NCBI RefSeq assembly: GCF_001642955.1
Contig: NZ_LWSK01000003.1
Coordinates: 1-64,000, forward strand
Direction of reading: 5' to 3'
Length of the DNA: 64,000 bases
Source: Rubripirellula obstinata
Lineage (GTDB): Bacteria > Planctomycetota > Planctomycetia > Pirellulales > Pirellulaceae
Shown here in pieces: positions 1,804-58,528 of the stretch (the first letter of the stretch is position 1; each line of letters starts with the position of its first letter). The position numbers and the translations under genes were made by a program. Under the pieces are notes generated by a model. That model was given only the letters and a program-made list of their open reading frames with translations. It was not told the DNA's origin and did not search any database.

Positions 1804-2013
1804 CTATTGTTGCTTGGGTTTCCCCGCTTTTTGGCCACTCTTGGCTTGCAACTTATCCGTTTCGCCTGTCGCAGCCTGAGACTCTGCCACCATGCGAGTG
1901 TAAGCTTCCACGTCGCTTTCGGTGGCTCCCTCCATCACACTGGCAGGTTCCGACGTACCGCATCCGATGACCAACATCGAACCAACCACACAAACCAAAA
2001 ACAACCGTTTCAT
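1804..2013 (-). CDS. Small lipoprotein downstream of a DUF1559 gene
   Basis: A 69-residue protein starting MKRLFLVCVVGSMLVIGCG. The signal sequence ends in a lipobox (VIGC), so the mature protein should be lipid-anchored through Cys18. The rest is short, charged and rich in Ala/Ser/Lys, with no domain. I chose the ATG at 2013 because it gives the classic K-R then hydrophobic signal; nine extra codons upstream add nothing. It follows the DUF1559 gene (ends 2105) by 91 bases on the same strand, the usual planctomycete pairing, which recurs at 16995. Function unknown. Confidence 0.75.
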   Translation of the reverse strand: MKRLFLVCVVGSMLVIGCGTSEPASVMEGATESDVEAYTRMVAESQAATGETDKLQAKSGQKAGKPKQQ

Positions 2014-2104
2014 CGAAAACCTCAAGTCATAATCTGACAAACAAAAAAAATGCGGTCGCTTGCAAAGATGCAGGCAACCGCAAAGAAAACTAACCCGAAG
2101 TCAA

Positions 2105-3640: not shown

Positions 3641-4561
3641 ATGATCAACGCTACCCGCACAAAATTTGCATTCCTGTTGCTCGTGTCGATCAGCACAACG
3701 TTTTGCGAATCGGCACACAGTCAATCGACCGCTCCCCAGGATGTCCCGCCGGAACCACCTGATGGCTATCAATGGGTCAAGAACGATGCGTTCAGTGACG
3801 AATTCAACGGGACCGAGTTAGACCAGGACAAGTGGCACGATCACCATCCAAGCTGGGTCGGGCGGCCACCGGGTAAGTTCATGCCGTCCAATGTCAGCGT
3901 TCGTGATGGTTATTTGCAGATCAAAAGCACCGTGCTGGATCCACCCCAAGGAGACTTCTCGATTGCGTGCGGTGCAGTCCAGTCGAAGTCTCAGGAGGCT
4001 TTGTACGGTTACTACGAATGCCGGATGAAGGCGTCGAGTGTTTCAACGTCGTCAACGTTCTGGCTAGCCGGCAAACCAAAACCGGTGCCCGGCGGAACGC
4101 TGCGTTTGGAGCTGGATATTCAAGAATCGATTGGCGACGCGCAGCGGTGGGAAGGCTTCAAGACACGCATGAACAGCAACACGCACATCACTTTCCTCGC
4201 TGAAAAGCAAGCAGCCGGTTCCGAACAAGACAAAACAGCGGAGCCAGAACCCAAGACGGCCAAAAAGGGAGATCACGTCAAGTTGAAATCCAACGTCAAT
4301 GAAGAATTCCATACCTACGGTTGCTGGTGGATCGATGCCAATTCCATGAAGTTCTACGCCGATGGAAAATACGCCTTCACGATCACGCCATCGACCGAGC
4401 TAGACCCGACTCCATTCGATCATCCCCTGTTCATGAACTTGGTATGCGAAACTTACTCGTGGGAAACGCCACCGACCCACGAAGACTTAGCCGATGATTC
4501 ACGCAACACGACGTACTACGACTGGGTTCGTTCGTACAAGCTGGTGAAACTAACTCAGTAG
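3641..4561 (+). CDS. GH16 beta-agarase/beta-porphyranase-like endo-hydrolase
   Basis: 306 residues with a signal peptide (residues 1-28, cut near AHSQS). The catalytic domain begins with SDEFNGTELDQDKWH (52-66) and WVGRPPGKF (72-80), the pattern seen in agarases and porphyranases of GH16. The catalytic motif ELDIQE gives Glu157 as nucleophile, Asp159, and Glu162 as acid/base, in the beta-bulge ExDxxE form. The domain runs to the end (YDWVRSYKLVKL), with no carbohydrate-binding module. It should cleave internal beta-1,4-galactosidic bonds of a red-algal galactan outside the cytoplasm. Agar versus porphyran specificity cannot be settled by eye. It is the first gene of the rightward block that continues with the sigma/FecR pair. 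Confidence 0.85.
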   Translation: MINATRTKFAFLLLVSISTTFCESAHSQSTAPQDVPPEPPDGYQWVKNDAFSDEFNGTELDQDKWHDHHPSWVGRPPGKFMPSNVSVRDGYLQIKSTVLDPPQGDFSIACGAVQSKSQEALYGYYECRMKASSVSTSSTFWLAGKPKPVPGGTLRLELDIQESIGDAQRWEGFKTRMNSNTHITFLAEKQAAGSEQDKTAEPEPKTAKKGDHVKLKSNVNEEFHTYGCWWIDANSMKFYADGKYAFTITPSTELDPTPFDHPLFMNLVCETYSWETPPTHEDLADDSRNTTYYDWVRSYKLVKLTQ

Positions 4562-7359: not shown

Positions 7360-9003
7360 ATGAATTCACTCTTTCGACCTGCGATTTTCCTATTCAGTTC
7401 TTTGCTGTGCAGTTGCGTCGGGTTCGCCCAGCAACCATCGACCCAATCGCCATCGACTCAGTCGCCATCGACTCAGCAACCATCGACTCAGCAACCACCG
7501 GGCCAGATTCCACCGAGCATCGAAGAGATTGATCAGGTCGCCGCATCGGGGCCGTTCACGGCGACTTGGAAGTCACTGGAAGGCTACGGAATTCCCGAGT
7601 GGTACAAGGACGCCAAACTTGGCATCTTCATTCACTGGGGTGTCTACAGTGTTCCGGCGTACGGAAGCGAGTGGTATCCGCGGAACATGTATATCGAGGC
7701 CGATGGCCCCCAGGGTGATGTCTTTCGTCACCACAAGAAGACTTGGGGTGATCAGTCCAAATTCGGTTACAAGGATTTCATTCCTATGTTTCAGGCCGAG
7801 AACTTTGACGCGGAATCCTGGCTAGCGCTCTTCAAGGAAGCGGGGGCGAAGTACATCGTTCCGGTTGCCGAGCACCATGATGGCTTTCCCATGTACGATT
7901 GCTCGTATACCCGCTGGGATGCGACCGAGATGGGACCGAAGCGTGACATTGTGGGTGAGCTTGCCAAGGCGTCAAAAGCAACCGGAATTAAGTTTGGTGT
8001 TAGTAGCCATCGTGCTTTTAACTGGGCTTTCTACCCACGCAACCAATCCTTCGACAACGCAAATCCACAGTACGAAGAATTCTACGGTCGCGCCATTCCT
8101 GCGTTGTTTGAGAAGGAAACGGTCGACTATCGAAACCACTACCCGCCCTACGATGACCAGTTTCGAGAAGAGTGGCTGCTGCGAACCGCTGAGTTGGTGA
8201 AAAAGTACGACCCTGATTTGGTCTGGTTTGACTTCGCGATCGCGGTTGACAAAGAAAAACCTTACGACCAACAAATGATGGTCGAAGAACTGCGTCGCTT
8301 TGCCGCTTACTACTACAACTTATCGGCGAGTCGTGGCAAAACGGGGATCATCAATTACAAATGGAATGCGTTTCCTGAACAAGCCGCTGTCTTGGATTTG
8401 GAACGCAGCAAGATGGACGCGATTCGTGAACCGTTCTGGCAAACCGATACGGCGGTTAGTTCAAGTTCATGGGGGTACACCGAAAACCAGCAGTATAAAA
8501 CGCCCGATCGATTGGTTGATGATTTGATTGACATCGTCGCAAAGAATGGCTGCCTACTGCTAAACATCGGCCCGCGTCCAGACGGCACCATTCCCGAACA
8601 GGACCAAGAAATCCTGCGGGAAATTGGTGGCTGGCTGAAGGTCAACGGCGAAGCGATCTATGGTTCGCGACCTTGGGAAACCTACGGTGAAGGCCCCACC
8701 GGGACTGCCACCGGCCACTTATCGGAAGACAAGAATAAACCGTTTACCGAGCATGACATTCGCTTTACTAAAAAAGGCGACGTGCTCTATGCGATCCCTT
8801 TGGAATGGCCGGCCAGCAATCAGGTAACGATCAAGACGCTCGGCAAGAGTTCGACACGGTACACCGATGCAATCAAATCAATCTCATTGCTGGGAAGCGA
8901 TGCCGAACTGCAATGGGATCGTAGCGAGGACGGATTGACGGTGACCTTACCGAGCGAACCATCCTGCAAGTATGCGTATGGTTTGAAAATCGAATCGCTG
9001 TAG
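7360..9003 (+). CDS. GH29 alpha-L-fucosidase family, possibly alpha-L-galactosidase
   Basis: 547 residues with a signal peptide (1-23, ends GFAQQ). A linker of five PSTQ(Q/S) repeats (25-48) follows, encoded by a 15-bp tandem repeat. The catalytic domain has GIFIHWGVYSVPAYGSEWY (88-106), EHHDGF (171-176) and YDPDLVWFDFA, in which Asp291 sits at the GH29 nucleophile position. Length and order fit the family. GH29 releases alpha-L-fucose. In this setting the sugar could be L-galactose, which differs from L-fucose only by the 6-hydroxyl and is half of porphyran once desulfated. The L-galactose-type pathway at 19593-24503 and the absence of other fucan enzymes support this, but substrate choice is inference. 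It lies between the sigma/FecR pair and a LacZ-like GH2. Confidence 0.85.
   Translation: MNSLFRPAIFLFSSLLCSCVGFAQQPSTQSPSTQSPSTQQPSTQQPPGQIPPSIEEIDQVAASGPFTATWKSLEGYGIPEWYKDAKLGIFIHWGVYSVPAYGSEWYPRNMYIEADGPQGDVFRHHKKTWGDQSKFGYKDFIPMFQAENFDAESWLALFKEAGAKYIVPVAEHHDGFPMYDCSYTRWDATEMGPKRDIVGELAKASKATGIKFGVSSHRAFNWAFYPRNQSFDNANPQYEEFYGRAIPALFEKETVDYRNHYPPYDDQFREEWLLRTAELVKKYDPDLVWFDFAIAVDKEKPYDQQMMVEELRRFAAYYYNLSASRGKTGIINYKWNAFPEQAAVLDLERSKMDAIREPFWQTDTAVSSSSWGYTENQQYKTPDRLVDDLIDIVAKNGCLLLNIGPRPDGTIPEQDQEILREIGGWLKVNGEAIYGSRPWETYGEGPTGTATGHLSEDKNKPFTEHDIRFTKKGDVLYAIPLEWPASNQVTIKTLGKSSTRYTDAIKSISLLGSDAELQWDRSEDGLTVTLPSEPSCKYAYGLKIESL
7432..7502 (+). repeat. 15-bp tandem repeats encoding a PSTQ linker
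   Basis: Successive units of the type CAGCAACCATCGACT encode QQPST/QSPST five times between the signal peptide and the GH29 catalytic domain. Such arrays expand and contract by slippage, so the linker length probably varies among strains. Confidence 0.7.
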
Positions 9004-9051: not shown

Positions 9052-12627
<3,576 letters not shown>

Positions 12628-13679: not shown

Positions 13680-13722
13680 AGCCTGGTTCGTGTTTGGAAA
13701 CAAATCGAGCCAGGCTTTTTTT
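13680..13722 (+). terminator. Rho-independent terminator after the PEP-CTERM gene
   Basis: AGCCTGGTTCG (13680-13690) pairs with CGAGCCAGGCT (13706-13716), with one G-T pair, and a run of seven T follows (13716-13722). It lies 20 bases after the PEP-CTERM stop, which separates that gene from the GH16 gene downstream. Confidence 0.8.
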
Positions 13723-13807
13723 AGCTCCGACCCTTGTTCGTCTTCCCTGGCTTGCCTGCCCCTGGCTCGTCCGACTCGGTCGAACCGAACTCATTTCGTT
13801 GGATATC

Positions 13808-20612: not shown

Positions 20613-20626
20613 TTGAATCTGTACTT

Positions 20627-45368: not shown

Positions 45369-46538
45369 ATGTTTATCGGTATCTTGGCGGCTCTTATTGC
45401 GGGGACCATGCTGGGTCTCTACGCGCTTCCTGGGAAATTTACCAGCGACTTTGAGGAAGAAAACAAGTGGAGTTTGTTTTTCATTTTGACGATGTTTGCG
45501 GTTCCCTTGATTGCAACGTTCGGTTTGATGAAAGGCGTCGGGGCAATCTATTCTGAGATTGATTCAAGCATCCTGATCACCATGATCGTGTCCAGCTTCC
45601 TGTGGGGTGTGGGTGTGATGATGTGGGGTAAGGCCATTGATCACATTGGTATGTCGCTCGGATTTTCTCTGTTCATTGGGACCGTGATTTTAGTTGGCAG
45701 CGTGTTGCCGCTGGGGATCGCCATTTCCAAAGGCCAACCACTGCCGTCGACGCCAACACTGATCGCCATCCTAATCGGGATCGCGATTGTGTTGATGGGA
45801 GTGCTGTCCAATGGAAAAGCTGGGTTGAAACGCGAAGCAGATGAAATGGCGCTAAAGGCTGGTGAAGCGAAGGCTGGTGAAGCGAGGGCTGGCGAAGGAT
45901 CAGCGGGTGAAGGATCAGCGGGCGACAGCGAAACAGCCAAGCCCAAGTCGTATGCGATTGGAATTCTGATCGCTGTCACGGGTGGTTTGTTGGCGACGGG
46001 ATTCAATGTCGCGTTTACCTACGGTGCAGGGCCGCTGGCAGACGCAGTCAAAGCGAACGGCAATCCAGGCTGGATGACCGCGATGGCCGTGATGTTGCCC
46101 GTCTTTCTAAGCGGCGGCGTCGCGATGACCGTCTATTTCCTGATTCAATTGTCCAAAAAGAAGGCTTGGGGAAAATTCAAAACTCCTGCGTTCGGGAAGA
46201 ACTTTGTTTTGATCTTCATCATGGCAGTGTTTCACTATGCCGCTTCGGCGATGTATGCCTTTGCCGCTGATAGCCTGGGTGCAAACGGTCCAGTGGTGGT
46301 CTACGCCATCTTCAATACAACCTGTCTGGTCGTCGCGGTTGTTAGCGGCATCTTGACGGGTGAATGGACCAAGGCATCACCGCAGGCGAAGCGATGGCTT
46401 TACACGGGGCTGACCTGCATGGTTGTCGGCGTGCTGGTGTTGGCCTACGGCCAGACGCTCGATCAACCGACCGCCGTCGAAACCACAGTTGAAACCGCAG
46501 CCAATTCTTTCATGAACTTGCACCAAGTGGGAGCTTAA
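45369..46538 (+). CDS. RhaT-like sugar permease (DMT superfamily)
   Basis: 389 residues with about ten membrane helices. MFIGILAALIAGTMLGLYAL then PGKFTSDFEEENKWSLFF, and the middle and end (GIGIAIVLMGVLSN-like, MAVFHYAASAMYAF) resemble the L-rhamnose/H+ symporter family (PF06379). Between helices 5 and 6 lies a low-complexity insertion of AGE/AGEGS units (about residues 160-190) encoded by 12-15-bp repeats. It begins the rightward unit leading to epimerase, dehydrogenases and cycloisomerase, so 3,6-anhydro-L-galactose is a sensible cargo. The cargo is inference. Confidence 0.8.
   Translation: MFIGILAALIAGTMLGLYALPGKFTSDFEEENKWSLFFILTMFAVPLIATFGLMKGVGAIYSEIDSSILITMIVSSFLWGVGVMMWGKAIDHIGMSLGFSLFIGTVILVGSVLPLGIAISKGQPLPSTPTLIAILIGIAIVLMGVLSNGKAGLKREADEMALKAGEAKAGEARAGEGSAGEGSAGDSETAKPKSYAIGILIAVTGGLLATGFNVAFTYGAGPLADAVKANGNPGWMTAMAVMLPVFLSGGVAMTVYFLIQLSKKKAWGKFKTPAFGKNFVLIFIMAVFHYAASAMYAFAADSLGANGPVVVYAIFNTTCLVVAVVSGILTGEWTKASPQAKRWLYTGLTCMVVGVLVLAYGQTLDQPTAVETTVETAANSFMNLHQVGA
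45853..45927 (+). repeat. Short tandem repeats inside the RhaT-like gene
   Basis: Units such as GCTGGTGAAGCGAAG and GCGGGTGAAGGATCA repeat in frame and encode AGEAKAGEARAGEGSAGEGS in the cytoplasmic loop between helices 5 and 6. Confidence 0.65.
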
Positions 46539-46542
46539 TTCG

Positions 46543-47595
46543 GTGAACCTATCCAAAGATCCCTTTGGCGAAGTCGATGGTGAGGCAGTGGACCTGTTCA
46601 CCTTGCAAAACGACAATGGCGTCACCATCAAGGTGACCACCTACGGCGGCACGGTGACGTCGATGGTGGTGCCGGACCGGGACGGAAATCGCAGCGACAT
46701 CGTCTGTGGGTTTGACACCCTGGATGGCTACTTTGCTGACGAGTACAAAAAGAATTCGCCCTATTTCGGATGTCTGGTTGGACGCTACGCGGCGCGAATC
46801 AAAGATGGCAAGTTCACCGTCGATGGCACCGATCATCAAGTCGCCACCAACGATGGTCCCAATCACTTGCATGGCGGGGTGAAGGGGTTTGATAAGCGAG
46901 TTTGGCAGGTTGTCAAAACAGCACAGGACAATGATTCCGTTTCACTAACTTTGTCATTGGATAGCCCCGATGGTGAGGAGTCATTTCCAGGGAACTTAAA
47001 GGTTGTCGTCGAGTACCGCTTGACCAACGACAACGAAATTCAAATCAAGTACCAAGCCGAAACTGACAAAACGACGCCTGTTTCCTTGACCAATCACACC
47101 TATTTCAACCTGAACGGGTTCGCAGACAAAGTCCTCGATCACGTTTTGCAGTTAAGCAGTGATCGCATCCTGGTGCCCGACGAAACCAATGTTCCGGTAG
47201 GCGAGGAAGCACCGGTTGCCGGCACTGCCGCCGACTTTAACCAGCCCAAGCGGATTGGCGATGCCTTTGACGAATTGCCGCTCGGGTTCGAGCACTTTTA
47301 TGCGCTCAACAAACCCGACGGATCGCTTCAAAAGGTGGCCGAGGTGAACGAGCCCACGACCGGTCGCAGATTGGAAGTTTTTTCAACCGAACCAGGGACT
47401 TTGTTCTACACCGGCAGGTATACCTCCGACAATTTGAAGCGTGAAAGTGGCGATCAATTTGGTCAGTTCCGTGCCTTCTGCGTCGAGACATCCAAGTATC
47501 CCAATGGCCCCAACATTGACGGAGCGCCCAAGAGCGTTCTGAAACCAGGTGAGAAGTACGACGAAATGACGGTCTACAAACTCAGTTGGACCTAG
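46543..47595 (+). CDS. galM: Aldose 1-epimerase (GalM-like mutarotase)
   Basis: 350 residues from a GTG start four bases after the RhaT-like stop. TYGGTVTSMVVPDRDGNRSD, YFGCLVGRYAARIKDGKF, PNHLHGGVKGFDKRVWQ (catalytic His), SLTNHTYFNLNG (second His) and the C-terminal catalytic Glu region (FCVETSKYPNGPNIDG) are those of the GalM family. It interconverts alpha and beta anomers of aldoses. There is no signal peptide, so it acts in the cytoplasm, where it could serve galactose released from galactan or anhydrogalactose. Close spacing indicates an operon with the permease. Confidence 0.88.
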   Translation: MNLSKDPFGEVDGEAVDLFTLQNDNGVTIKVTTYGGTVTSMVVPDRDGNRSDIVCGFDTLDGYFADEYKKNSPYFGCLVGRYAARIKDGKFTVDGTDHQVATNDGPNHLHGGVKGFDKRVWQVVKTAQDNDSVSLTLSLDSPDGEESFPGNLKVVVEYRLTNDNEIQIKYQAETDKTTPVSLTNHTYFNLNGFADKVLDHVLQLSSDRILVPDETNVPVGEEAPVAGTAADFNQPKRIGDAFDELPLGFEHFYALNKPDGSLQKVAEVNEPTTGRRLEVFSTEPGTLFYTGRYTSDNLKRESGDQFGQFRAFCVETSKYPNGPNIDGAPKSVLKPGEKYDEMTVYKLSWT

Positions 47596-47603
47596 GAACT
47601 TCT

Positions 47604-47669
47604 GTAGTGGACGCGGCCACGAGTCCCTCCACTTTCCCAACCGCTAGGACTCGTGGCCTCGTCCACTAC
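47604..47669. repeat. REP-like perfect hairpin (GTAGTGGACG family)
   Basis: GTAGTGGACGCGGCCACGAG at the left pairs with CTCGTGGCCTCGTCCACTAC at the right (one mismatch), with a loop of about 20 bases. It lies inside the operon between the epimerase and the MDR gene. Confidence 0.75.
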
Positions 47670-47694
47670 TATTATTCCCCCCAAGTAACAAAAC

Positions 47695-48708
47695 ATGAAA
47701 TCAGCGCAGTACAAGGGTGATCGAACGATTGCCGTCAGCAGCAGCGAAGCGATCAAACCGGGCCCCGGCGAGGCTCGTCTTGAAGTGGCTTACTGCGGTA
47801 TCTGCGGAACCGACATTCACATCTTTCACGGCGCGATGGACCAACGCGTTCAGATGCCACAGATCATCGGCCACGAAGCGTCGGCGGTTGTCGCCGAAAT
47901 CGGCGAAGGCGTCACAACGGTTGCGGTCGGCGATCGAGTCGCGGTCCGTCCGCTGCATTTCGGTGCTCCGTCAACCTTTGACAACGGATTCGCTCACGTT
48001 GGCAAAAACCTAAAGTTCATCGGGATCGACATGCCTGGCGGAATGCAATCGTCTTGGACGGTGCCCGCCTACACGCTGCACCATTTACCTGAGTCAATGG
48101 ACTTAACCCACGGTGCGATGATCGAACCCGCTGCGGTGGCGTGCCACGATGTCCGATTGGGCGAAGTCAAGCCAGGCGAAACCTGCGTGGTCATTGGCGG
48201 CGGCCCGATCGGACTGTTGATTGCACTGGTCGCATTGCACAAGGGTGCCACCGTCATCATGTCGGAAGTCAATCAAACTCGATTGGACCTAGCCGATTCG
48301 TTAGGGATCAAGGTTGTCAATCCGATCAAGCAGAATCTGCCCGCAGCGGTCAGCGAAATGACCGACGGAAAAATGGCCGATTGCGTGTTCGAGGTCTCTG
48401 GTTCGGCACCCGGCGTCGAGGTGATGACCGAATTGCCCAACGTTCGCGGTCGTATCGTGATGGTCGCGATTCACCCGGAACCCAAACCCGTCAATCTGTT
48501 CAAGTTTTTCTGGTCCGAAATCAAGATGATCGGTGCTCGACTTTACGAAGAAGAGGACTTTGATGAAGCGATCGCATTGGCCGCAAGTGGCAAGTTGCAT
48601 TTGGACAAACTGATCACCAAGGTCAGCCCCATTGATCAAGTCCAAGCGACCTTCGACGGGATCGACGCTAATCCCGATGGCATCAAGTATTTGATTCAGT
48701 GCAGCTAA
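47695..48708 (+). CDS. Zinc MDR dehydrogenase, probable 2-keto-3-deoxy-L-galactonate 5-dehydrogenase
   Basis: 337 residues. GICGTDIHIFHG and IIGHEASAVVAEI (catalytic zinc), and the Rossmann motif VIGGGPIGLLIALV, mark a zinc-type medium-chain dehydrogenase. The usual four-cysteine structural-zinc loop is missing (the region reads RPLHFGAPSTFDNGFAHVG), which sets it apart from the MDR at 19593. In agarolytic bacteria 2-keto-3-deoxy-L-galactonate is oxidised at C5 and then reduced to D-KDG. The neighbour at 48734 is KduD-like, which fits the second step, and this gene fits the first. The exact substrate is inference from neighbours. Confidence 0.78.
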   Translation: MKSAQYKGDRTIAVSSSEAIKPGPGEARLEVAYCGICGTDIHIFHGAMDQRVQMPQIIGHEASAVVAEIGEGVTTVAVGDRVAVRPLHFGAPSTFDNGFAHVGKNLKFIGIDMPGGMQSSWTVPAYTLHHLPESMDLTHGAMIEPAAVACHDVRLGEVKPGETCVVIGGGPIGLLIALVALHKGATVIMSEVNQTRLDLADSLGIKVVNPIKQNLPAAVSEMTDGKMADCVFEVSGSAPGVEVMTELPNVRGRIVMVAIHPEPKPVNLFKFFWSEIKMIGARLYEEEDFDEAIALAASGKLHLDKLITKVSPIDQVQATFDGIDANPDGIKYLIQCS

Positions 48709-48733
48709 ACACTTTCCTCAACTCATTGAACGC

Positions 48734-49504
48734 ATGACAACTCTTTCATCATTTGATCTCTCCGGTAAAACCGCTTTGGTCACCGGTTGTAAACGCGGCA
48801 TTGGCAAAGGCATGGCACTTGGCCTTGCGGAAGCCGGTGCCAACATCATCGGCGTCTCTGCATCGCTGGAAACCAGCGGCAGTGATGTCGAAAAAGAAGT
48901 CACAGCACTGGGGCGATCCTTCCAAGGTTATCAATGCGATTTTTCGGATCGTGCGGCGGTTTATGAATTCATCAAACAAGCCAAAGCGGATCACCCGACG
49001 ATCGACATTTTGGTCAACAACGCTGGCACGATCCTTCGCAAACCAGCCGCGGAACATCCTGACGATTACTGGGACAAGGTGATGGAAGTCAACTTGAACG
49101 CCCAGTTCGTGCTGGCACGTGAATTTGGCAAAGACATGGTTGCCAAGGGAAGTGGCAAGATCATTTTCACTGCGTCCTTGCTGACCTTCCAGGGTGGCAT
49201 CACGGTGCCCGGTTATGCAGCCAGCAAAGGCGGGATTGGTCAACTGACGATGGCGCTGGCCAACGAATGGGCCGGCAAAGGAGTGAACGTCAACGCGATC
49301 GCGCCCGGTTACATCGCAACGGACAACACCGAAGCACTGCGTGAGGATCCCGTCCGCAGCGAACAGATTCTCGGCCGTATTCCAGCCGGGCGCTGGGGCA
49401 ATGCTGATGACTTCAAAGGTCCGATCGTGTTCCTTGCCTCCGACGCGGCGCAGTATGTCCACGGGACCACGTTGCTGGTCGATGGCGGCTGGATGGGCCG
49501 TTAG
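48734..49504 (+). CDS. KduD-like short-chain dehydrogenase
   Basis: 256 residues. TGCKRGIGKGMALGLAEAGA (cofactor loop), ILVNNAGTI (NNAG), the catalytic Ser in ITVP/SLLTF region, YAASKGG (Tyr-x3-Lys) and the C-terminal GTTLLVDGGWM make it a classical SDR. The start FDLSGKTALVTG and overall length resemble 2-deoxy-D-gluconate 3-dehydrogenase/KduD proteins. KduD interconverts KDG and 2,5-diketo-3-deoxygluconate, which is the step needed to end the anhydrogalactose route at D-KDG. It starts 25 bases after the MDR stop, so the two are a pair. Confidence 0.83.
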   Translation: MTTLSSFDLSGKTALVTGCKRGIGKGMALGLAEAGANIIGVSASLETSGSDVEKEVTALGRSFQGYQCDFSDRAAVYEFIKQAKADHPTIDILVNNAGTILRKPAAEHPDDYWDKVMEVNLNAQFVLAREFGKDMVAKGSGKIIFTASLLTFQGGITVPGYAASKGGIGQLTMALANEWAGKGVNVNAIAPGYIATDNTEALREDPVRSEQILGRIPAGRWGNADDFKGPIVFLASDAAQYVHGTTLLVDGGWMGR

Positions 49505-49506
49505 TA

Positions 49507-49615
49507 CTTTGTCAAGAATCAGAACGAGGGTTGGCGGTAGTGGATCTTGTTAAAGATCCCAATGCGAATGGATCTTTAACAAGATCCACTACCCAAAAAC
49601 GTAATCTTGACAAAG
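49507..49615. repeat. REP-like hairpin (GTAGTGGATC family) inside a larger inverted repeat
   Basis: The perfect hairpin is 49537-49592 (GTAGTGGATCTTGTTAAAGA...CTAC). It is framed by CTTTGTCAAGA (49507-49517) and TCTTGACAAAG (49605-49615), extending the symmetry. It lies between the SDR and the aldehyde dehydrogenase gene. Confidence 0.75.
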
Positions 49616-49680
49616 CACTCGATATTTTCAATCAATTTTCAATCACCTACTTTTTTACTTGCTGAAGCGATCGTTTCCCC

Positions 49681-51159
49681 ATGACATTGTCCATGACAGA
49701 ATCCCGCCGTGGTGTTGAGCATTATCGAATGCTGATCCACGGTGAATTCAAAGATTCGGTATCCGGCCAAACGGTGGACGTGGCTAGCCCCACCACCGAA
49801 GAGGTGCTCTTTGCGGTGCCCGACGGAAGCAAAGAGGATGCCGTGATCGCGTTGGAATCCGCTCAGTCGGCGGCAAAATCCTGGGCAGCGACGCCTGCGG
49901 TGCAGCGTGGTGAAATTCTGGCGAAGTTTGCTGATTTGATTCGTACCAACCGTCAGCGGCTGGCAAAGATCTTGGTCAACGAGATGGGAAAAACCTACTC
50001 GCTAGCCCTGGGAGAAGTCGATGTTTCGGCGGACTTTATTAATTTCCCAGCCCAGGCGGCCAGACGTGTCGAAGGCGACATCCTTCCTTCTGATTCGCCC
50101 AACGAACACATCATGATTCACAAGGTGCCCTACGGTGTCACCGTGGGAATCGCAGCTTGGAATTTTCCGCTCGCGTTGTCGTGCCGAAAAATTGGTCCCG
50201 CACTGACGACCGGAAATGTCATGGTTATCAAACCACCCTTGGTGACGCCGGTCGCTGTTTTAGCGCTCGGCGAGCTGGCTTTGGAAGCGGGGATTCCTGC
50301 GGGTGTTTTGAATCTTGTCACTGGTGATGGTCCGACAATGGGCGAAGAATTGGTCACCAACAAGATCACTCGTTTGGTCTCCATGACTGGCTCCACACCG
50401 ACCGGGCAGCACATTTTCCGAGCGGCGGCCGAGCGGTTGACTGCCGTTCGCTTGGAACTCGGCGGCAAGGCTCCGTTTATCCTTTTGGAAGATGGAGACG
50501 TTGATAAAGCGGTGGACGCAGCCGTGGTTTCGCGGCATCTCAACAGCGGTCAAGTCTGTACTTGCCCCGAGCGGTTCTACATCCACGATGCTGTCTATGA
50601 AGAGTTTGTAAAGAAGTACTGTGCAGCGGTCGGAAAACTAAAAATTGGTGATCCGATGGAAGACAGTACTGATATCGGACCGAAGGTTAACGCTCATGAA
50701 ACCGATCGACTGGAACAAATCGTTCGCGATGCGGTTCAGGCGGGTGCCAAGTTGGAAGTGGGCGGGAAGCGTCCCGAGGGGGATCAGTTTAAGAAAGGCC
50801 ATTGGTATGAGCCGACCGTACTGACTCACTGCAATCACGACATGGCCGTGATGCGTGACGAAGTTTTTGGCGTCGTGAGTCCGGTGATGCGAGTGAGTAG
50901 TTACGACGAAGCACTCCGACTCGCCAATGACAGCGACTATGGCCTTGCCGCTTTTATTTTTACAAGCGACATGAGAAAGATCCAACGCGCAGTTCTTGAA
51001 CTCGAATTCGGAGAAATCTACGTCAATCGACCCATGGGGGAACAACGCCAAGGATTCCACAACGGGCACAAGCTCAGTGGAACCGGTGGCGAGGACGGAA
51101 AATACGGAATGGATAACTACCTCGAAAAGAAGACGATGTATGTCAACTTCGATCAATAG
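49681..51159 (+). CDS. Aldehyde dehydrogenase, probable 3,6-anhydro-L-galactose dehydrogenase
   Basis: 492 residues, full length for the ALDH superfamily. [20 protein letters not shown] (cofactor), [16 protein letters not shown] with the general-base Glu, and [15 protein letters not shown] with the catalytic Cys are present; [20 protein letters not shown] is near the end. In agarolytic Vibrio and others an aldehyde dehydrogenase oxidises 3,6-anhydro-L-galactose to the acid, and the gene sits next to a cycloisomerase of the enolase superfamily. The following gene here is exactly such an enzyme and overlaps the end of this one by 20 bases. Function assigned by that pairing. Confidence 0.83.
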
Positions 51160-52318
51160 CGACCACGCGGCCCGCCTGCCGGCTGTCCCCATGCCAGGAA
51201 ATTCTGCTGGGAATCAATATCATGAACCAGCGAAGATTGAATCAATCGTAACCCGATTGTTTTGTGTTCCCCTGCCGGAGGTTTTGTCGGATGCCAAACA
51301 CGGTGACCATACTCATTTCCAGCTAGTCACCGCAACGATTACGCTGGGTGATGGCAGTGTGGGCACCGGGTACACGTACACCGGAGGCAAAGGAGGTCAT
51401 GCGATCAAAGCCATGATCCAGCATGATTTGGCACCCGCGTTGATTGGCAAAGACGGTACTGCCGTTGAAAAAGTCAATGACTTCATGGAATGGCACATTC
51501 ACTATGTTGGTCGTGGTGGCATTGCATCGTTTGCCATGTCGGCGATCGATATCGCTCTTTGGGATATCCGCTGCAAGCAAGCCGGTGAGCCTCTTTGGAA
51601 GATGGCAGGCGGAGCCGGAAAAGATTGCTTGGCGTACTGCGGCGGAATCGATCTGATGTTCCCATTGGACAAGTTGCTTAATCAAATCCGCGGCTATCTG
51701 GCAAAGGGAATCAATGCGGTAAAGATCAAAATTGGACGCGAAAACCTTGACGAGGATATCGAGCGTATTAAGGCGGTACGCGAATTGATCGGCCCGAATA
51801 TCAAGTTCATGGTGGACGCCAACTATTCATTGACGGTCGATCAGGCAATCGAAGCGGCGACTCGGTTCAAACCGTATGACATCGCCTGGTTTGAAGAGCC
51901 CACGATTCCAGACGACTATCAAGGCTATGCAAGAATTGCCGAGGCGACCGGAATGCCGTTGGCCATGGGTGAGAATCTGCATACGATTCACGAGTTCGGC
52001 TACGCCCTGGAACAATCGAAGCTGTCGTTCATTCAGCCCGACGCATCGAATTGTGGCGGCATTACCGGATGGTTGGCTGCGGCCCAGTTGTCTCGCAAAT
52101 ACAACATTCCCGTTTGTTCGCATGGGATGCAAGAACTCCATGTGAGTCTAGTTTCAGCGCAATCCAACGGTGGCTGGCTGGAAGTGCATAGCTTCCCGAT
52201 CGACCAATACACCACCCGGCCGTTGGTCGTCGAAAATTCCCGCGCGGTCGCACCGGATGATCCAGGGACTGGGGTCACCTTCGATTGGGCGAAACTCTTG
52301 CCCTACGAGCAGAAGTAG
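51140..52318 (+). CDS. Enolase-superfamily 3,6-anhydro-L-galactonate cycloisomerase
   Basis: 392 residues from the ATG at 51140; a later ATG at 51191 is possible. It belongs to the mandelate racemase/muconate lactonising group: capping domain first, then the barrel with NAVKIKIGR (the KxK base), [10 protein letters not shown] and FEEPTIPDD and MGENLH (Asp/Glu metal ligands), and [12 protein letters not shown] (His/Glu end). Such an enzyme beside an aldehyde dehydrogenase opens the anhydro ring to give 2-keto-3-deoxy-L-galactonate in agarolytic bacteria. The context (two GH117 genes, ALDH) makes this the best reading; other sugar-acid dehydratases are the alternative. Confidence 0.82.
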
Positions 52319-52596
52319 GCCGTGACCAATCGACCTGGGTTCGAGCGAAGTACGTCAAGCCACGAAGCCAGTCTCTCCTTTGGACGCGAGACGCTGCGAC
52401 GAGCAGAACAATTCTCGGGTGGCTCATCTGTGCCTCACAAGAATATTGACTTTCGTTGTCGCCATGTCACACATCAACACCCCTGGGCGTCTGAAGTCGC
52501 AATTTACCTGTGAGTCGCAGCCACACATTTAGACGCAAGCATTCTGTTAGAGACTGCTTGTGACCACATCCAAGTTTTCATGCAGTGAGGAACCGA

Positions 52597-54144
52597 ATGA
52601 CTGACAAAGACATTCCAGCGGCCAGCATCACGACGGATGACCAAACCCACGAGTTGCCTGTGGTGCCAACGCAATTCATTTATCCGTTTGTGCTTGTCAC
52701 GACGCTTTTCGCGCTGTGGGGATTCGCCAACGACGTGACCAACCCTTTAGTCGCGGTGTTCAAAGATGTCTTTGTCATCGATAACGCTCAAAGTACGTGG
52801 GTGCAAATGGCGTTTTACGGAGGGTACGCCACCATGGCGCTGCCGGCGGCGATCTTCATCCGCAAGTTTTCCTACAAGTCCGGGATCATTGTAGGTTTGT
52901 TGCTTTACGCGACGGGTGCCCTGCTATCGGTCCCTGCTGCTTCAGGCGCGAACTTCAATCTGTTTATCATTGCACTCTATATTCTGACCTTTGGGCTCGC
53001 ATTTTTGGAGACAACGGCGAATCCTTACATCTTGTCGATGGGACCGGCGGAAACATCGACTCGTCGTCTCAACTTGGCTCAAGCCTTCAATCCCGTTGGT
53101 TCGCTCACTGGGATGTTCATTGCCGGCACGGTCATTCTCTCTACGATCCAAGTCGAGGACTTTAAGAGCGATGTGAATGGTTTTCATGACGAACTCAGAT
53201 CGGCAGCGGTAGAGAATCAAGAATACAAGATTCTTCCCTTTCTCAAGTCGAAAGAGCGCGAACGATCCAATGATGCGAACGTCAAAGCCTATGTCACAAA
53301 CTTGGCTCCTGATGCCCAGGACGTTGCCTCGACTGCGTTACAAGATTTTAAGGACGGGAAGATTGCTTCCTTTCAGGGCAAAACTCATTCCGAACTACAG
53401 AAGCATGATCTAAAGATTGTTTCGATGCCCTACATGGTGATTGGCTTTATCGTCATCGGCGTGATGATTGTTTTCATTCTGACGAAGATGCCCGACACCA
53501 GTCCGCAGGGTGATGAGCATGATCTTCATTTCGGTAGGACCGTTGGCAGATTGATGAAAAATCCCCGTTACGTGGGAGGCGTGATTGCGCAAATGTTCTA
53601 TGTGGGAGCGCAGATCATGTGCTGGACGTTCATTATTCAGTACGCTGAAAACGCTTTGGGGATCGATAAGGCGACAGCGCAGAATCACAACATCCTGGCG
53701 ATGGTCATCTTCCTCTTCAGTCGATTCATCTGCACTTTCTTCCTGAAATATATCTCGCCAGGAAGGCTGCTGATGGTACTCAGTCTCGGTGGGCTCGCCT
53801 GCACGCTTGGCGCAATTCATTTGGAAGGCATGGCCGGACTCTATTCCCTGATTGCTGTTTCCGCCTGCATGTCGCTGATGTTCCCAACCATTTATGGATT
53901 GGCACTCGACGGTGTCGGTGAAGATGCCAAGCTGGGTTCGGCGGGCCTGATCTTTGCCATCGTCGGCGGGGCCTTCATGCCGCGTTTGCAGGGTCAGATT
54001 CTCGACTTAGACTCTTTCATGGGAACCACGGCGATCCGGGGATCATTTTATCTGCCAGCACTTTGCTTTGTGGTGATTGCCATCTACGGAATTGTTTGCT
54101 GGAACCGTAGGAAAGCTCCAATCTCCAAAGGCGAACTCGCTTAG
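52597..54144 (+). CDS. FucP-like sugar:H+ permease (MFS)
   Basis: 515 residues from the ATG at 52597, with GAGGA seven bases upstream. Twelve membrane helices. YPFVLVTTLFALWGFANDVT (helix 1 with the Asn-Asp of FucP), WVQMAFYGGYATMALPAAIF, FLETTANPYILSMG and LNLAQAFNPVGSLTGMFIAG are diagnostic of the FGHS/FucP branch. A long cytoplasmic loop (about 195-275) is inserted between helices 6 and 7. FucP carries L-fucose and also L-galactose, which fits the L-galactose-type pathway. It lies 278 bases after the cycloisomerase gene and may have its own promoter. Confidence 0.88.
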   Translation: MTDKDIPAASITTDDQTHELPVVPTQFIYPFVLVTTLFALWGFANDVTNPLVAVFKDVFVIDNAQSTWVQMAFYGGYATMALPAAIFIRKFSYKSGIIVGLLLYATGALLSVPAASGANFNLFIIALYILTFGLAFLETTANPYILSMGPAETSTRRLNLAQAFNPVGSLTGMFIAGTVILSTIQVEDFKSDVNGFHDELRSAAVENQEYKILPFLKSKERERSNDANVKAYVTNLAPDAQDVASTALQDFKDGKIASFQGKTHSELQKHDLKIVSMPYMVIGFIVIGVMIVFILTKMPDTSPQGDEHDLHFGRTVGRLMKNPRYVGGVIAQMFYVGAQIMCWTFIIQYAENALGIDKATAQNHNILAMVIFLFSRFICTFFLKYISPGRLLMVLSLGGLACTLGAIHLEGMAGLYSLIAVSACMSLMFPTIYGLALDGVGEDAKLGSAGLIFAIVGGAFMPRLQGQILDLDSFMGTTAIRGSFYLPALCFVVIAIYGIVCWNRRKAPISKGELA

Positions 54145-54295: not shown

Positions 54296-55600
54296 TCATT
54301 CAAGATTTGCATCTTCGATGCGTTTGCGTTGCTCGTGATTCAGGCCCTGCTTGAAGTAAACATCATGCTTAATAAACGCGCGATGACGTTTCATGTCCGA
54401 ATCGTGGACGTCTTGGCTGAGGTCACAGTCGAACCGCGCAAGAACGGCGTGGTTCTGACTCCATTGGGTGTAGTTGTTGAAGTGAGAAATTCCCCAGGTG
54501 ATGCCACGCCCATCGGTTGTGTTGGTGAACGCATCGGGGACATAGGGGCCAGCGGCAATGGGCATCAACTGGACCATCGAAGCAATCTCGAAGTTGACGC
54601 CGTCTTTGGCAAATTGAATCGTGTTGTGTTCGTTCCCGTCGCCGTGAACCATCGCCGCGATGCCGTCTTGAAACGGAAACAATGACGTTTCATGACCGGA
54701 ACTAAGAACGGGATTAAGAGGGTGCTTTTCAAAAGGCCCGAGCGGATCGTCAGCAATCGCCAATCCCTGCATCCGCACTAAGTCTGGATCGCCATCGGAA
54801 TCAGATTTGTAGTACAGATAGATCTTGTCGTTGTGGACAAGCGGATAGGGATCGTGAATCGAGTATTGGTCCCAATCGCCTGGGGCACCGTTGGGAATCA
54901 CGATCTTGTTGTGTGGCGTCCAGGGACCATCAGGAGAATCCGCGTAAGAGACCGCGACGGGACAATCGTCCCCGCGCGTGCCGCTCGCTTCCATAAAGCC
55001 TTGGTAGTAGAGGTAGTATTTCCCCTTCCAAAACAGGATGTCAGTGGTGGTCACACTTCGCCAACCGACTTGTGGTTTAGAAGGGCGTGGGATCGCGACG
55101 CCTTGTTCGGTCCAGTTGAAACCGTCTTCGCTGGTCGCGTACCAGATATCGGCCAAATCCCAATCACTCGATGGAATGGTGTCGGTGCATTTCTGTGGAC
55201 CTTGGGGCGGGACAGGCGTGTGACGGTGCGTGTACCAAACGTAGTACTTCCCGTTTGCAAGAATCACCTTGGACGGATCGCGACGGGAAATCGTTCCGTC
55301 ATGATCGTTGTAGTCAAAGCCGTTCAGTTGCGTGTACTTAAACAGCGAATAGAGTTCGTTGTCTTCCGGGCGAGGTGCTAAGTAGGCGGTGTAGTTCCGC
55401 TCCATCGCCGCGCTCATCGGACGATCAGGCTTCTGCTTGGGCAACACAAAGGGAAAGCCAGGCGACGTTGCTTCAGGCACCGCTTGTGGTGTTGTTTTCG
55501 GTGCTGTTTCCGGTGCTGCTTTCGCTTGAGGCGGTTCCGCCTCGCAAGCGTGTAGCGAAAAGAAGGTGGCGAGCACGAGAAAGACTATTGCGAATTTCAT
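54296..55600 (-). CDS. GH117 alpha-1,3-(3,6-anhydro)-L-galactosidase, second copy
   Basis: 434 residues from the ATG at 55600 (signal MKFAIVFLVLATFFSLHACE). A Pro/Ala/Thr-rich segment (QAKAAPETAPKTTPQAVPEA) separates the signal from the propeller. GTISRRDPSKVILANGKYYV then WYTHRH, DIWYATSEDGFNWTEQGVAI, RSVTTTDILFWKGKYYLYYQ, SIHDPYPLVHNDKIYLYYKS and SSGHETSLFPFQDGIAAMVH align with the copy at 43299. Both should release anhydro-L-galactose from neoagaro-oligosaccharides. Differences around the HDP and GHE loops suggest different chain-length or substitution preference. A TGTTAACA site lies about 103 bases upstream. Confidence 0.87.
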   Translation of the reverse strand: MKFAIVFLVLATFFSLHACEAEPPQAKAAPETAPKTTPQAVPEATSPGFPFVLPKQKPDRPMSAAMERNYTAYLAPRPEDNELYSLFKYTQLNGFDYNDHDGTISRRDPSKVILANGKYYVWYTHRHTPVPPQGPQKCTDTIPSSDWDLADIWYATSEDGFNWTEQGVAIPRPSKPQVGWRSVTTTDILFWKGKYYLYYQGFMEASGTRGDDCPVAVSYADSPDGPWTPHNKIVIPNGAPGDWDQYSIHDPYPLVHNDKIYLYYKSDSDGDPDLVRMQGLAIADDPLGPFEKHPLNPVLSSGHETSLFPFQDGIAAMVHGDGNEHNTIQFAKDGVNFEIASMVQLMPIAAGPYVPDAFTNTTDGRGITWGISHFNNYTQWSQNHAVLARFDCDLSQDVHDSDMKRHRAFIKHDVYFKQGLNHEQRKRIEDANLE

Positions 55601-55698
55601 CCCGGTTCTTTGTTGTTCGTACGCGATGCGCCTCCCACAAGCCGTGGCGGCATTGAAACGGTAGGACTCCGACGTGAGAGAAGCTGACGCCAAAATGC

Positions 55699-55713
55699 TA
55701 ATTGTTAACATTG
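55699..55713. promoter_or_regulatory. Candidate operator, TGTTAACA core
   Basis: TAATTGTTAACATTG, core 55703-55710, lies 103 bases before the start of the leftward GH117 gene. Confidence 0.55.
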
Positions 55714-55909: not shown

Positions 55910-56107
55910 TGGAAAGGGTCTTCTATTTGACCCATGGTTGGCAAGCAAAGGATCAAGGCCTTTCGACGGCTCCAGCGAAATTCAAATCCATCGCTTTCCC
56001 AGTACAAGTCCAATCGCCAACAACGATCAGGCTACGAGAAGTCAATGCTAGATTTCATTTTCGCGTTGTCAGGTGTGACTTCAAAAAATCGATCCCGCCG
56101 AAAGTCG

Positions 56108-58528
56108 ATGAGCATCTGCCGGCGAATTAAAAAAGTAGAACTGCTGGAATCGCGAATCCTGTTGGCTGGGCTGGCGGATGCCGAGTGGTCAGTTCTGCCT
56201 GTTCCAGCTGATGCGGGCAACGGATTGGAGTGGAGACTTGCGACGGAACTATCTGATGAATTCAACGAGGACACGATTGGCACCGTTGCTGATCAACTAC
56301 AGAAAACCTCGGGGGTTCTCGATTGGAACATCGCTCCAGACCATGACGACAGCATCAAGTGGGTGGATTCCAAACCAGACGGATGGCTCGGCCCGGGGGC
56401 GACGTATTTCGACAAGAACAAACCGGCTAGTGATAAGAACTATGAAATCCAGAACAGCAAATTGATCATCTCAGCGACGAAAGTGCCGCTGGACCAACAA
56501 GTGACCAACCTTTTAGAGCCGGAATTCACGCGATCAGTTTATACCAGTTACATCACGTCGAAACACAAGTTCGGCCCCGGGACATTCACCGAAGCCTTGA
56601 TTCGGACTTCATCCACGAAGGTTTCCACCAACTTTTGGACGCTCAGCGATAGCAACGAAACCGAAATCGACGTGGTTGAAGTTTACGGTGACGGGAATTG
56701 GTTTCCTCGTCGACCATCCAGTAACGTTCATATCTTCAAACGAGGTGGTGACGGCGGAAACAATAATAGCGACCAAGTTCATCATGTTCACCAACAAAGT
56801 CTTGCTGGTCAGTGGACTCGATGGGGTGTTGATTGGAAATCAACCACGGAACTGGATTTCTACATCAACGGACAATTGGTTCGGCAGTTGGATTTGGCAA
56901 CCGGCAATAACGTGGTTTACAACGAAAACGGCGAAGTCGTCACCAGTGCTAATTGCGATTCTTTGACTCAAAGCACCTGCATGGGCACCGACGGGTACAA
57001 CTGGGACGCGACCAGCCAATTCCTAAACGAAGACATGCGATTGATTTTTGACTTGGAAGCTCATTCGTGGCGGGGAGAAGATGGGATTCCTTCGGATGCT
57101 GACTTGGCCAATCCGAGCGTCAATCAGATGCAAGTCGAATGGGTACGCACCTATCAACGAATCGTCGCCAATCAACCGGCATCCGGCGTGCCGATTGTCC
57201 AAGGGTCCGCCCAACAAGGCCGAGCGTTAATGGTCGACACTAGCGGAATCCAAGATCCAAATGGATTGGGGGAATTTGTCTATCAATGGATGCGTGACGG
57301 TGTCAACATTTCGGGCGCGAACGCATCAACCTATGTCCTTTCCAACGGCGATATCGACAGCACTGTTTCGTTACAGATCGCGTTTATCGATGGCGGTGGT
57401 AGCGAGGAATTCGTTTTCAGTGACGACGTCGGACCAGTCTTTCCTCGTGACATCGACAGTGACTTTGGCGATGCTCCCGAGTCTTTTGGAACTCGTTTTG
57501 CCGACGACGGCCCTTCTCACGCAGCAACCGGACCGCGACTAGGTCAGCGACGCGACGTTGATCCCGATGGATTCCCTTCAACCAGCGCCACCGGCGACGA
57601 CGATTCGAGTTTGAGTGATGAAGACGGAGTCATGTTTGGCGGCATCACCCCCAACGGTTCGCAAGCTGCCGTCAATGTCGATGTGCAGCAAGATGCGGTC
57701 AATATCGACGGACAGCAAGCTGCTGTCAACATCGATGGACAGCAAACTGCCAGCCCCCGGATTGATGCTTGGATTGACTTTGATCAAAGCAACAACTTCA
57801 CATCTAACGAAAAGATTCTTGACGGTGTCGCCGTTTCTGGCGGTTTGCAAACGCTGAACTACGACCTGCCTGCGGGACTGACTGCGGGTGACCGCTATGC
57901 CAGGGTTCGGATTAGTTCAATCGGCGGGCTTTCACCGACCGGGTTCGCGCCCGACGGTGAGGTCGAAGACTATCTGATTTCCGTTGACGCCCCCAAAGTC
58001 GAAGCGATCACTGTCAATGGAGGCGATGCTCAGCGGTCTTCCCTGGATTCGGTGACAGTAACTTTTGATCGCGATGTCGAAATAGACCAGTCCGGATTAG
58101 GAGCATTTCAAGTTTTGAACTTGGACACGCTTCAGTCGGTTGATCACAAGGTGAGTGTCCAAATGCTGGATGGGCGGACCGTGGTCGACCTGTCATTCAC
58201 ACCGTCAACGTCTTCCGTCAATGAATACGGAAGTTTGGAAACCGCGAATTACAAACTGGTCATTCTTTCATCGCGTCTTTCGTCAGCGACAGTTTCGATG
58301 ACGGGCGACCATATCTTTGGCGACCACAATCCCACCGATGCATTCTTCCGCAAATACGGCGACATCAATGGCGACGACGCCGTCGGACTGACCGACTTTG
58401 CAGGATTCCGAGGATCGTTTGGAAAAGCAGTTGGTGAACCTGGATATCAAGTAGGTCTCGATGTCGATGGTGACGGGAGAATCGGCTTGAAGGAATTCGC
58501 GGCATTTCGCGTTAGCTTTGGAACTTGA
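56108..58528 (+). CDS. Large surface GH16 with GEVED domain and dockerin-like tail
   Basis: 806 residues from the ATG at 56108. The N-terminus MSICRRIKKVELLESRILLA has the LExRxLLA motif of planctomycete surface proteins. The GH16 domain (about 40-365) has LATELSDEFNEDTIG and the motif EIDVVE (Glu186 nucleophile, Asp188, Glu191 acid/base). Then an Ig-like domain (about 375-455), a GEVED domain (about 460-640, DFGDAPESFGTR... to DGEVEDYLISV) with a small repeat VNIDGQQ(A/T)A, a second beta domain and a calcium-loop tail (GDINGDDAVGLTDFAGFRG and DVDGDGRIGLKEFAAFRV). It should be an endo-galactanase held at the cell surface. The same C-terminal set ends the beta-helix protein at 17219. A start further upstream (55934) is possible but lacks support. 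Confidence 0.82.
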   Translation: MSICRRIKKVELLESRILLAGLADAEWSVLPVPADAGNGLEWRLATELSDEFNEDTIGTVADQLQKTSGVLDWNIAPDHDDSIKWVDSKPDGWLGPGATYFDKNKPASDKNYEIQNSKLIISATKVPLDQQVTNLLEPEFTRSVYTSYITSKHKFGPGTFTEALIRTSSTKVSTNFWTLSDSNETEIDVVEVYGDGNWFPRRPSSNVHIFKRGGDGGNNNSDQVHHVHQQSLAGQWTRWGVDWKSTTELDFYINGQLVRQLDLATGNNVVYNENGEVVTSANCDSLTQSTCMGTDGYNWDATSQFLNEDMRLIFDLEAHSWRGEDGIPSDADLANPSVNQMQVEWVRTYQRIVANQPASGVPIVQGSAQQGRALMVDTSGIQDPNGLGEFVYQWMRDGVNISGANASTYVLSNGDIDSTVSLQIAFIDGGGSEEFVFSDDVGPVFPRDIDSDFGDAPESFGTRFADDGPSHAATGPRLGQRRDVDPDGFPSTSATGDDDSSLSDEDGVMFGGITPNGSQAAVNVDVQQDAVNIDGQQAAVNIDGQQTASPRIDAWIDFDQSNNFTSNEKILDGVAVSGGLQTLNYDLPAGLTAGDRYARVRISSIGGLSPTGFAPDGEVEDYLISVDAPKVEAITVNGGDAQRSSLDSVTVTFDRDVEIDQSGLGAFQVLNLDTLQSVDHKVSVQMLDGRTVVDLSFTPSTSSVNEYGSLETANYKLVILSSRLSSATVSMTGDHIFGDHNPTDAFFRKYGDINGDDAVGLTDFAGFRGSFGKAVGEPGYQVGLDVDGDGRIGLKEFAAFRVSFGT

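Follow-up and report, generated by a model that had tools for sequence, protein, structure and literature searches.

Earlier reports have touched on the breakdown of red-algal galactans by planctomycetes. Their available parts describe an agar-degrading planctomycete, Algisphaera agarilytica (PMC4042473), an uneven distribution of porphyranase and GH117 genes among planctomycetes (PMC4807772), and P450 demethylation found in loci for agarose from Pseudomonadota, Bacteroidota and Planctomycetota (PMC12316285). A P450 in a planctomycete agarose locus has been mentioned in print before. In the literature searched, which missed most subscription papers, we found no gene-level account of a planctomycete locus for porphyran or agar. 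Here we describe a candidate locus in Rubripirellula obstinata. It lies in bases 1-64000 (hereafter the window) of the 146,689-base contig NZ_LWSK01000003.1, which belongs to a draft genome of 6.58 Mb in 307 contigs. We consider it very probable that this is a porphyran/agar catabolic region. All activities, substrates, localisations and regulatory roles given below are predicted from sequence.

The window contains 65 open reading frames (ORFs) of at least 150 aa. Forty of the proteins were scanned against Pfam, the remainder being mostly overlapping frames; the ferredoxin and the protein at 62448 were scanned additionally. Pfam, phmmer and motif searches place four GH16, two GH117, three GH2 and one GH29 enzymes and one formylglycine-type sulfatase between 3641 and 58528 (Table 1). 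The same interval holds a P450/ferredoxin/reductase chain with an alcohol dehydrogenase (ADH) and an esterase, four L-galactose-type enzymes, a seven-gene operon for 3,6-anhydro-L-galactose (AHG), three transporters, and regulators of the extracytoplasmic function (ECF)/FecR, AraC and GntR types. The original prediction had listed enzymes, both sugar pathways, transporters and regulators of these kinds, and all of them are present. That prediction ran from 1804 to 58528; before 3641 it includes a DUF1559 gene and a short lipoprotein-like ORF, neither of them a galactan enzyme. It did not mention a BNR_4 protein, a secreted beta-helix-like protein, the two genes next to the P450 (ADH and esterase) or the absence of a hexonate dehydratase. 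No SusC or SusD domain occurs among the 40 proteins scanned, as had been predicted. The region works like a polysaccharide utilisation locus (PUL) but falls outside the strict Bacteroidota definition, which asks for a SusC/SusD pair.

A PDB sequence search with nine window proteins gave, for five of them (P450, AHG cycloisomerase (ACI), GH117a, GH16a and sulfatase), the enzyme expected of a porphyran/agar locus as the top match (6g5o, 5xd7, 3p2n, 4awd and 7lha, respectively), which supports the porphyran/agar assignment made originally. GH16a scored 240 bits against the beta-porphyranase 4awd, compared with 75 and 55 bits against the agarases 6hy3 and 1o4y. The matches of GH16d were, in order, a 'GH16 hydrolase' and beta-agarase D, both ahead of porphyranase A. 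Although Pfam gives no match for GH16c, its sequence includes the GH16 motif EIDITE and shares 30% identity with GH16a over 317 residues; the ExDxxE motif is present in all four GH16 proteins. Three of the four Pfam GH16 matches in the whole genome fall within these 64 kb (P about 4e-6 under uniform scatter), and the clustering is therefore beyond chance. The proteins at 43299 and 54296 gave GH43/GH32-type matches in Pfam, and phmmer groups both with GH117 enzymes. The nearest PDB entries to GH117b, 4u6d and 4u6b, are uncharacterised GH117-type proteins, both deposited as hypothetical proteins. In their sequences, the window thus holds the porphyranase- or agarase-type GH16 and the GH117 enzymes of a red-galactan catabolic locus. 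The sulfatase, being nearest to the characterised enzyme and carrying the formylglycine motif CVPSR, has the features of an S1_11-type L-galactose-6-sulfatase. We compared the window with 241 genomes of the family Pirellulaceae, its own included. Relatives of the sulfatase occur in 112 of them at 1e-120 (five candidates scored per genome); the nearest, in G544, is 80% identical, and the other relatives listed are 61% identical or less. As a porphyran marker the sulfatase was rejected, being too common in the family.

The AHG operon contains an AHG dehydrogenase (AHGD) together with an ACI, and can be assigned to the AHG pathway on these predicted functions. The ACI matches 5xd7 with 615 bits, and the nine motif positions of an enolase-type site are present. 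The gene order recurs in 12 other regions of the family, sometimes without the aldose epimerase or RhaT, and partly in Bacteroidota, Kiritimatiellota and an Akkermansiaceae metagenome-assembled genome (MAG). ACI matches at 1e-80 were found in 26 family genomes, exactly one in each, and in four of 392 genomes of a phylum-wide draw that included the window's own. The family matches comprise four at 68-100% identity (the window's genome, G555, G575 and G542) and 22 at 43-51%. Among the 12 mapped operons, three carry this first type of ACI and nine (G433, G533, G545, G524, G515, G520, G535, G544 and G430) carry a second type, 44-51% identical to that of the window. Across the same operons, AHGD is 67-85%, ADHc 71-91% and KduD 82-93% identical to the window's genes, the exception being a KduD of 39% in G533. 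The aldose epimerase is unmatched in G545, G535, G544 and G430, and RhaT in G430. An AHGD tree of 27 rows unites four genomes with the first type and four with the second at 100/98, and an ADHc tree of 26 rows unites nine rows of the family at 99/98. The ACI tree, with 40 rows after removal of L001 and L005 as too incomplete, separates the two types at 100/100 and places the window, G555 and G575 (99/95) among Kiritimatiellota and Bacteroidota. Support for joining this group to a Kiritimatiellota row and a Bacteroidota row is weak (93/85), and the branches that meet between the two types are long. The nearest ACIs among the 80 named loci listed are three from Kiritimatiellota at 82-84%; no planctomycete appears in the titles of these 80 loci, and relatives near the window's genome may be missing.

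Given that the ACI types are 44-51% identical while AHGD and ADHc stay at 67-91%, and that the Kiritimatiellota AHGD is 52% identical to that of the window, these comparisons indicate that ACI alone has been replaced in place within the AHG operon. The ACI of G542 may represent a second replacement event. For the second type, tested with the G545 enzyme, the nearest entry is the Streptomyces protein 2ovl at 381 bits, against 347 bits for 5xd7. The 2ovl sequence starts with IERVRTD, and the same start can be read from the SCO3480 primer printed in the available part of PMC9706016, which reports that the SCO3480 enzyme was shown to be an ACI. The nine enolase-type motif positions are identical in five second-type sequences. 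Based on this shared start and these positions, both types are probably cycloisomerases. This introduces the question of why the cycloisomerase alone was exchanged inside a stable operon. We also observed that the KduD-like gene of 39% identity (G533_C1 2769452) stands in an otherwise alike AHG operon, perhaps reflecting a second in-place exchange.

The P450 scored 333 bits against 6g5o, with the next PDB match at 144. That entry is titled 'Cytochrome P450', and we take it to be the 6-O-methyl-galactose demethylase of Zobellia. A haem-Cys motif is present, the ferredoxin carries C-x5-C-x2-C, and the P450 with its ferredoxin and reductase has the sequence features of a 6-O-methyl-galactose demethylase system. 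P450 matches at 1e-60 occur in 11 family genomes including the window's own. The other ten, 42-47% identical, have no ADH, esterase or reductase in their mapped surroundings, which are limited in two cases (the G522 contig measures 8.8 kb, and the G515 P450 lies 0.6 kb from a contig end), and a ferredoxin in G515 alone. Within the family, the combination of P450, ferredoxin, reductase, ADH and esterase was seen in the window's genome alone. As for the ten P450s themselves, they are possibly other demethylases.

Outside the family, the search covered 40 genomes drawn from the 80 listed ACI loci plus L082, with L005 excluded, and a P450 match was found in 31. Twelve of these regions were mapped: the P450 has both ADH and esterase next to it in ten (L198 and L234 lack the ADH), and the reductase matches in ten as well, the exceptions being L196 and L197. 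A P450 tree of 21 rows, without G556, G600 and G522 and with G523 entered twice, joins the window to G356 at 100/100, separate from nine Bacteroidota rows. The window's P450 shares 62% identity with that of the Phycisphaera-like G356, presumably Phycisphaera mikurensis, and 42-46% with the nine aligned from Bacteroidota. In Zobellia russellii and relatives, P450, ferredoxin, ADH and esterase stand beside GH29, a lactonase and a major facilitator superfamily (MFS) carrier. The available part of PMC10033563 notes ADH and esterase genes near such P450s and leaves their role open in Zobellia and Formosa. The pair also stands next to the P450 in the window, as it does in three further genomes from outside Bacteroidota; this speaks for a genuine function of the pair in demethylation.

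The original prediction had suggested a comparison for conservation of the whole region in related planctomycetes. Such conservation was not observed. The AHG and L-galactose modules stand apart in relatives, and within the family the P450 set was seen in this genome alone. In G542 a cluster of MFS carrier, aldo-keto reductase (AKR), ADH (36%), UxaE, AraC-type regulator 1 and sulfatase (53%) lies about 40 kb from the AHG operon; in G575 and G556, UxaE, GH29, AKR and the FucP-like MFS carrier adjoin; G555 has no UxaE match. Homologues of GH16c near AHG operons are 47-49% identical in G555, G575, G535 and G544 and 45% in G545. The region is a mosaic of modules of different ancestry, not a conserved block.

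We propose the following scheme. Secreted GH16 enzymes, one porphyranase-like, one agarase-like and two related, would cut the polymer. The sulfatase would strip the 6-sulfate from terminal L-galactose, after which GH29 could free L-galactose, GH117 AHG, and GH2 D-galactose or 6-O-methyl-D-galactose, each taking its turn at the chain end. Import may be shared among the FucP-like carrier for L-galactose, the RhaT-like carrier for AHG and the sodium:solute symporter for the D-galactose sugar. In the cell, the P450 chain would demethylate 6-O-methyl-galactose, and the ADH and esterase probably handle the resulting formaldehyde. AHG would pass through AHGD, ACI and ADHc/KduD towards 2-keto-3-deoxygluconate (KDG), and L-galactose would be converted to its lactone, ring-opened, oxidised to tagaturonate and epimerised. 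The porphyran/agar reading draws on the five top PDB matches, the agarase-type matches of GH16d and the GH16 clustering, on the recurrence of the AHG order in relatives and of the P450 module in Zobellia russellii and its relatives, on the FucP-like MFS carrier and AKR adjoining UxaE in G542, G575 and G556, and on the gene overlaps that join sulfatase to BNR_4, ADH to lactonase, and P450 to reductase and ferredoxin.

There are also observations that weigh against this reading. A genome-wide Pfam search gave no match to UxuA and none to UxaA (positive controls in 5 of 14 genomes; IlvD/EDD-type dehydratases were not searched for). The three MR_MLE_C matches in the genome are the ACI, an enolase (by sequence) and one unassigned protein, with no other likely dehydratase among them apart from the unassigned one, and a search for a dehydratase close to UxaE, covering eight proteins from three relatives, found none. 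Since UxuA and UxaA are both absent, the L-galactose branch is without a recognised dehydratase, and the genome does not hold a complete route from L-galactose to KDG as judged by either gene. For the same reason, and because the search did not extend to KDG kinase and aldolase, the description of the region as 'nearly complete' could not be upheld. This raises the question of how L-galactose breakdown is completed in a genome that lacks both UxuA and UxaA. In addition, the available text of PMC10033563 states that two studied relatives of the ADH, from beside a P450, gave no formaldehyde activity. UxaE and sulfatase relatives are weak markers because they are common (102 and 112 of the 241 genomes). 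Finally, G556 has UxaE, GH29, AKR and MFS carrier yet no ACI match, so that the module may serve another polymer.

This last point leads to an alternative in which the AHG/GH117 half serves agar, the other half (GH29, AKR, lactonase, UxaE and FucP) handles L-fucose derived from fucoidan or a different polymer, and their adjacency is accidental. GH29, the FucP-like carrier and the L-fuconolactonase-like lactonase do belong to fucose-type families, and both G556 and the missing UxuA and UxaA would fit. However, the adjoining sulfatase is nearest to an exo-L-galactose-6-sulfatase, UxaE suits galactonate chemistry and not 6-deoxy sugars, and in Zobellia russellii the P450 module has GH29, a lactonase and an ADH next to it. 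We regard this alternative as unlikely. Somewhat less likely still is a locus for agar only, which would use porphyran incompletely and in which minor decorations would be the targets of the sulfatase, P450 and GH29; the core kept in relatives (AHG operon, GH117 and GH16c, without P450 or BNR_4) agrees with it, but GH16a is far closer to the porphyranase than to the agarases. That a foreign contig was assembled or binned into a planctomycete genome is highly improbable: the draft is in 307 contigs with a contamination estimate of 2.07%, and several parts have their nearest relatives outside the family, but the AHG genes except ACI are nearest to same-genus genomes, planctomycete features (Planc_extracel-type starts, DUF1559, GEVED) run throughout the contig, and its composition is even.

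Two proteins of the region are less readily placed. BNR_4 has no PDB sequence match, and its NCBIfam match to the alpha-rhamnosidase BT3686 is weak (22 bits against a cut-off of 700), so that its sequence does not place it in the BT3686 family (GH145-like). Relatives at 1e-40 occur in 24 family genomes including the window's, seven of them at 57-67%, and five of those seven have an ACI match, which is suggestive only. BNR_4 as a conserved sulfatase partner was rejected, as no orthologue of the window sulfatase adjoins it in the seven closest relatives; in G533, sulfatases of 25-30% identity surround the BNR_4 relative. Like GH16d, the beta-helix-like protein has GEVED and a dockerin-like end; its best PDB match is weak and dockerin-like (E 0.022). 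It occurs in two family genomes. The single homologue, in G520 (45%), has Beta_helix just under the cut-off and GH115_C above it, and the AHG operon is on another G520 contig. Single-sequence structure models reached a mean predicted local distance difference test (pLDDT) score of 33.5 for BNR_4 and 33.3 for the beta-helix-like protein. It is conceivable, though we would not expect it, that BNR_4 is the first of a new glycosidase family that frees an L-sugar from the desulfated end and that the beta-helix protein with its dockerin represents a new kind of enzyme acting on galactans. If true, then together with an operon that carries either ACI, planctomycete galactan digestion would be a separately assembled system and not a Bacteroidota copy. 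Near the BNR_4 homologue of G544, a 1349-aa ORF (L180, G544:C10 234753-238802) resembles a Cas9 N-terminus.

Table 1. Features of the window with their predicted types (positions in bases of the window)
Feature	Position	Strand	Basis or remark
GH16a, porphyranase-like	3641..4561	+	Pfam GH16; top PDB 4awd beta-porphyranase, 240 bits; motif ELDIQE
ECF sigma factor; large protein	4976-5491; 5504-7270	+	large protein: weak FecR match, 20.4 bits, under cut-off
GH29, candidate alpha-L-galactosidase or fucosidase	7360..9003	+	Pfam; 57-62% homologue adjoins UxaE and AKR in G575, G556
GH2a, LacZ-type	9343..12627	+	Pfam
GH16b	13694..15550	+	Pfam GH16; LamG-like N part (under cut-off), SHD1; motif EIDVFE
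Secreted beta-helix-like protein	17219..19579	+	LExRxLL start motif, GEVED, dockerin-like end; body read from sequence
Zinc ADH, candidate L-galactonate 5-dehydrogenase	19593..20630	-	Pfam; 4-bp overlap with lactonase
Amidohydrolase lactonase, L-fuconolactonase-like	20627..21466	-	Pfam; 288 bits, cut-off 400
AKR, candidate L-galactose dehydrogenase	21932..23005	-	Pfam
UxaE family, tagaturonate epimerase	23253..24503	-	Pfam; 102/241 family genomes
AraC-type regulator 1	24660..25580	+	Pfam
Sulfatase, exo-L-galactose-6-sulfatase-like	25694..27403	-	top PDB 7lha, E 2.7e-165; CVPSR
BNR_4 protein	27400..28827	-	Pfam; gene overlaps sulfatase gene by 4 bp
Sodium:solute symporter (SSF)	29183..30973	+	Pfam
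GH16c	31037..31921	+	motif EIDITE; 30% identity to GH16a
Esterase; zinc ADH of demethylation module	32064-32867; 32997-34103	-	Pfam/NCBIfam; beside P450 in 10/12 regions outside the family
P450; ferredoxin reductase; ferredoxin	34223-35359; 35352-36668; 36665-37087	-	Pfam; overlapping genes
AraC-type regulator 2	37091..37945	-	Pfam
GH2b; GH2c	38073-40613; 40625-43195	+; -	Pfam; mutual identity 43%
GH117a, 3,6-anhydro-alpha-L-galactosidase-like	43299..44552	-	top PDB 3p2n, 690 bits
AHG operon: GntR 44693, RhaT-like 45369, aldose 1-epimerase 46543, ADHc 47695, KduD-like 48734, AHGD 49681, ACI 51158	44693..52318	+	Pfam/NCBIfam
FucP-like MFS transporter, candidate L-galactose carrier	52585..54144	+	TIGR00885 510 bits, cut-off 280 (NCBIfam L-fucose:proton symporter)
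GH117b	54296..55711	-	top PDB 4u6d, 708 bits
GH16d, agarase-like	55934..58528	+	Pfam; LExRxLL start motif, GEVED, dockerin-like end

Several other genes were seen within or beside the region. DUF1559 pilin-like proteins are encoded at 2105-3349 and 15761-17008. In 12 galactan regions totalling 680 kb there are 7 DUF1559 motif matches, spread over three regions with five in a single one, against none in 17 other regions (466 kb). This enrichment near galactan loci is suggestive, but the matches are too few and too unevenly spread to support a role of these genes as a SusC/SusD replacement. A small PEP-CTERM protein (12890-13660) lies between GH2a and GH16b, and a secreted-looking, Asp- and Tyr-rich protein at 58840-59937 has no Pfam match. 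At 62448-64000, in a gene that runs on beyond the window as far as contig base 64582 (L217), a bacteriorhodopsin-type protein (Pfam 106 bits) stands next to one of beta-carotene 15,15'-dioxygenase type (88 bits). A predicted light-driven rhodopsin pair thus lies 4 kb away from the galactan genes.

Among known systems, the porphyran/agar loci of Zobellia and relatives (Bacteroidota) have in common with the region GH16, GH117, GH2, GH29, AHG genes, the P450-ferredoxin-reductase-ADH-esterase set, a lactonase and an MFS carrier. It differs from them in having no SusC/SusD in the proteins scanned, in its ECF/FecR regulation, in secreted proteins with GEVED/dockerin-like parts and LExRxLL starts, and in the AKR and UxaE of its L-galactose part. 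The 6-O-methyl-galactose demethylase system in the available part of PMC10033563 shares the P450, ferredoxin, reductase and neighbouring ADH and esterase, whereas the window's P450 is far nearer to the Phycisphaera-like one (62%) than to those of Bacteroidota (42-46%). The porphyran PUL of Bacteroides plebeius shares a porphyranase GH16, GH29, GH2 and an S1_11-type L-galactose-6-sulfatase, but according to the available part of PMC12316285 it has no P450 demethylation, whereas the window has both the P450 chain and the AHG operon. In the dual L-glucose/L-galactose pathway of Luteolibacter LG18, as far as the available text of PMC12632266 describes it, L-galactose is likewise led through L-galactonate to tagaturonate; LG18 then uses tagaturonate reductase and altronate dehydratase, whereas the window has UxaE in a genome without a UxaA match. 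The AHG operons of family planctomycetes and of the Akkermansiaceae MAG (L010) share GntR, RhaT, aldose epimerase, ADHc, KduD, AHGD and ACI, although in nine of the 12 other family operons the ACI is of the second type, with 44-51% identity to that of the window. Thus, we conclude that this region is a real, mosaic planctomycete counterpart of the known red-galactan loci, and that a planctomycete porphyran/agar locus without SusC/SusD is now concrete enough for testing.

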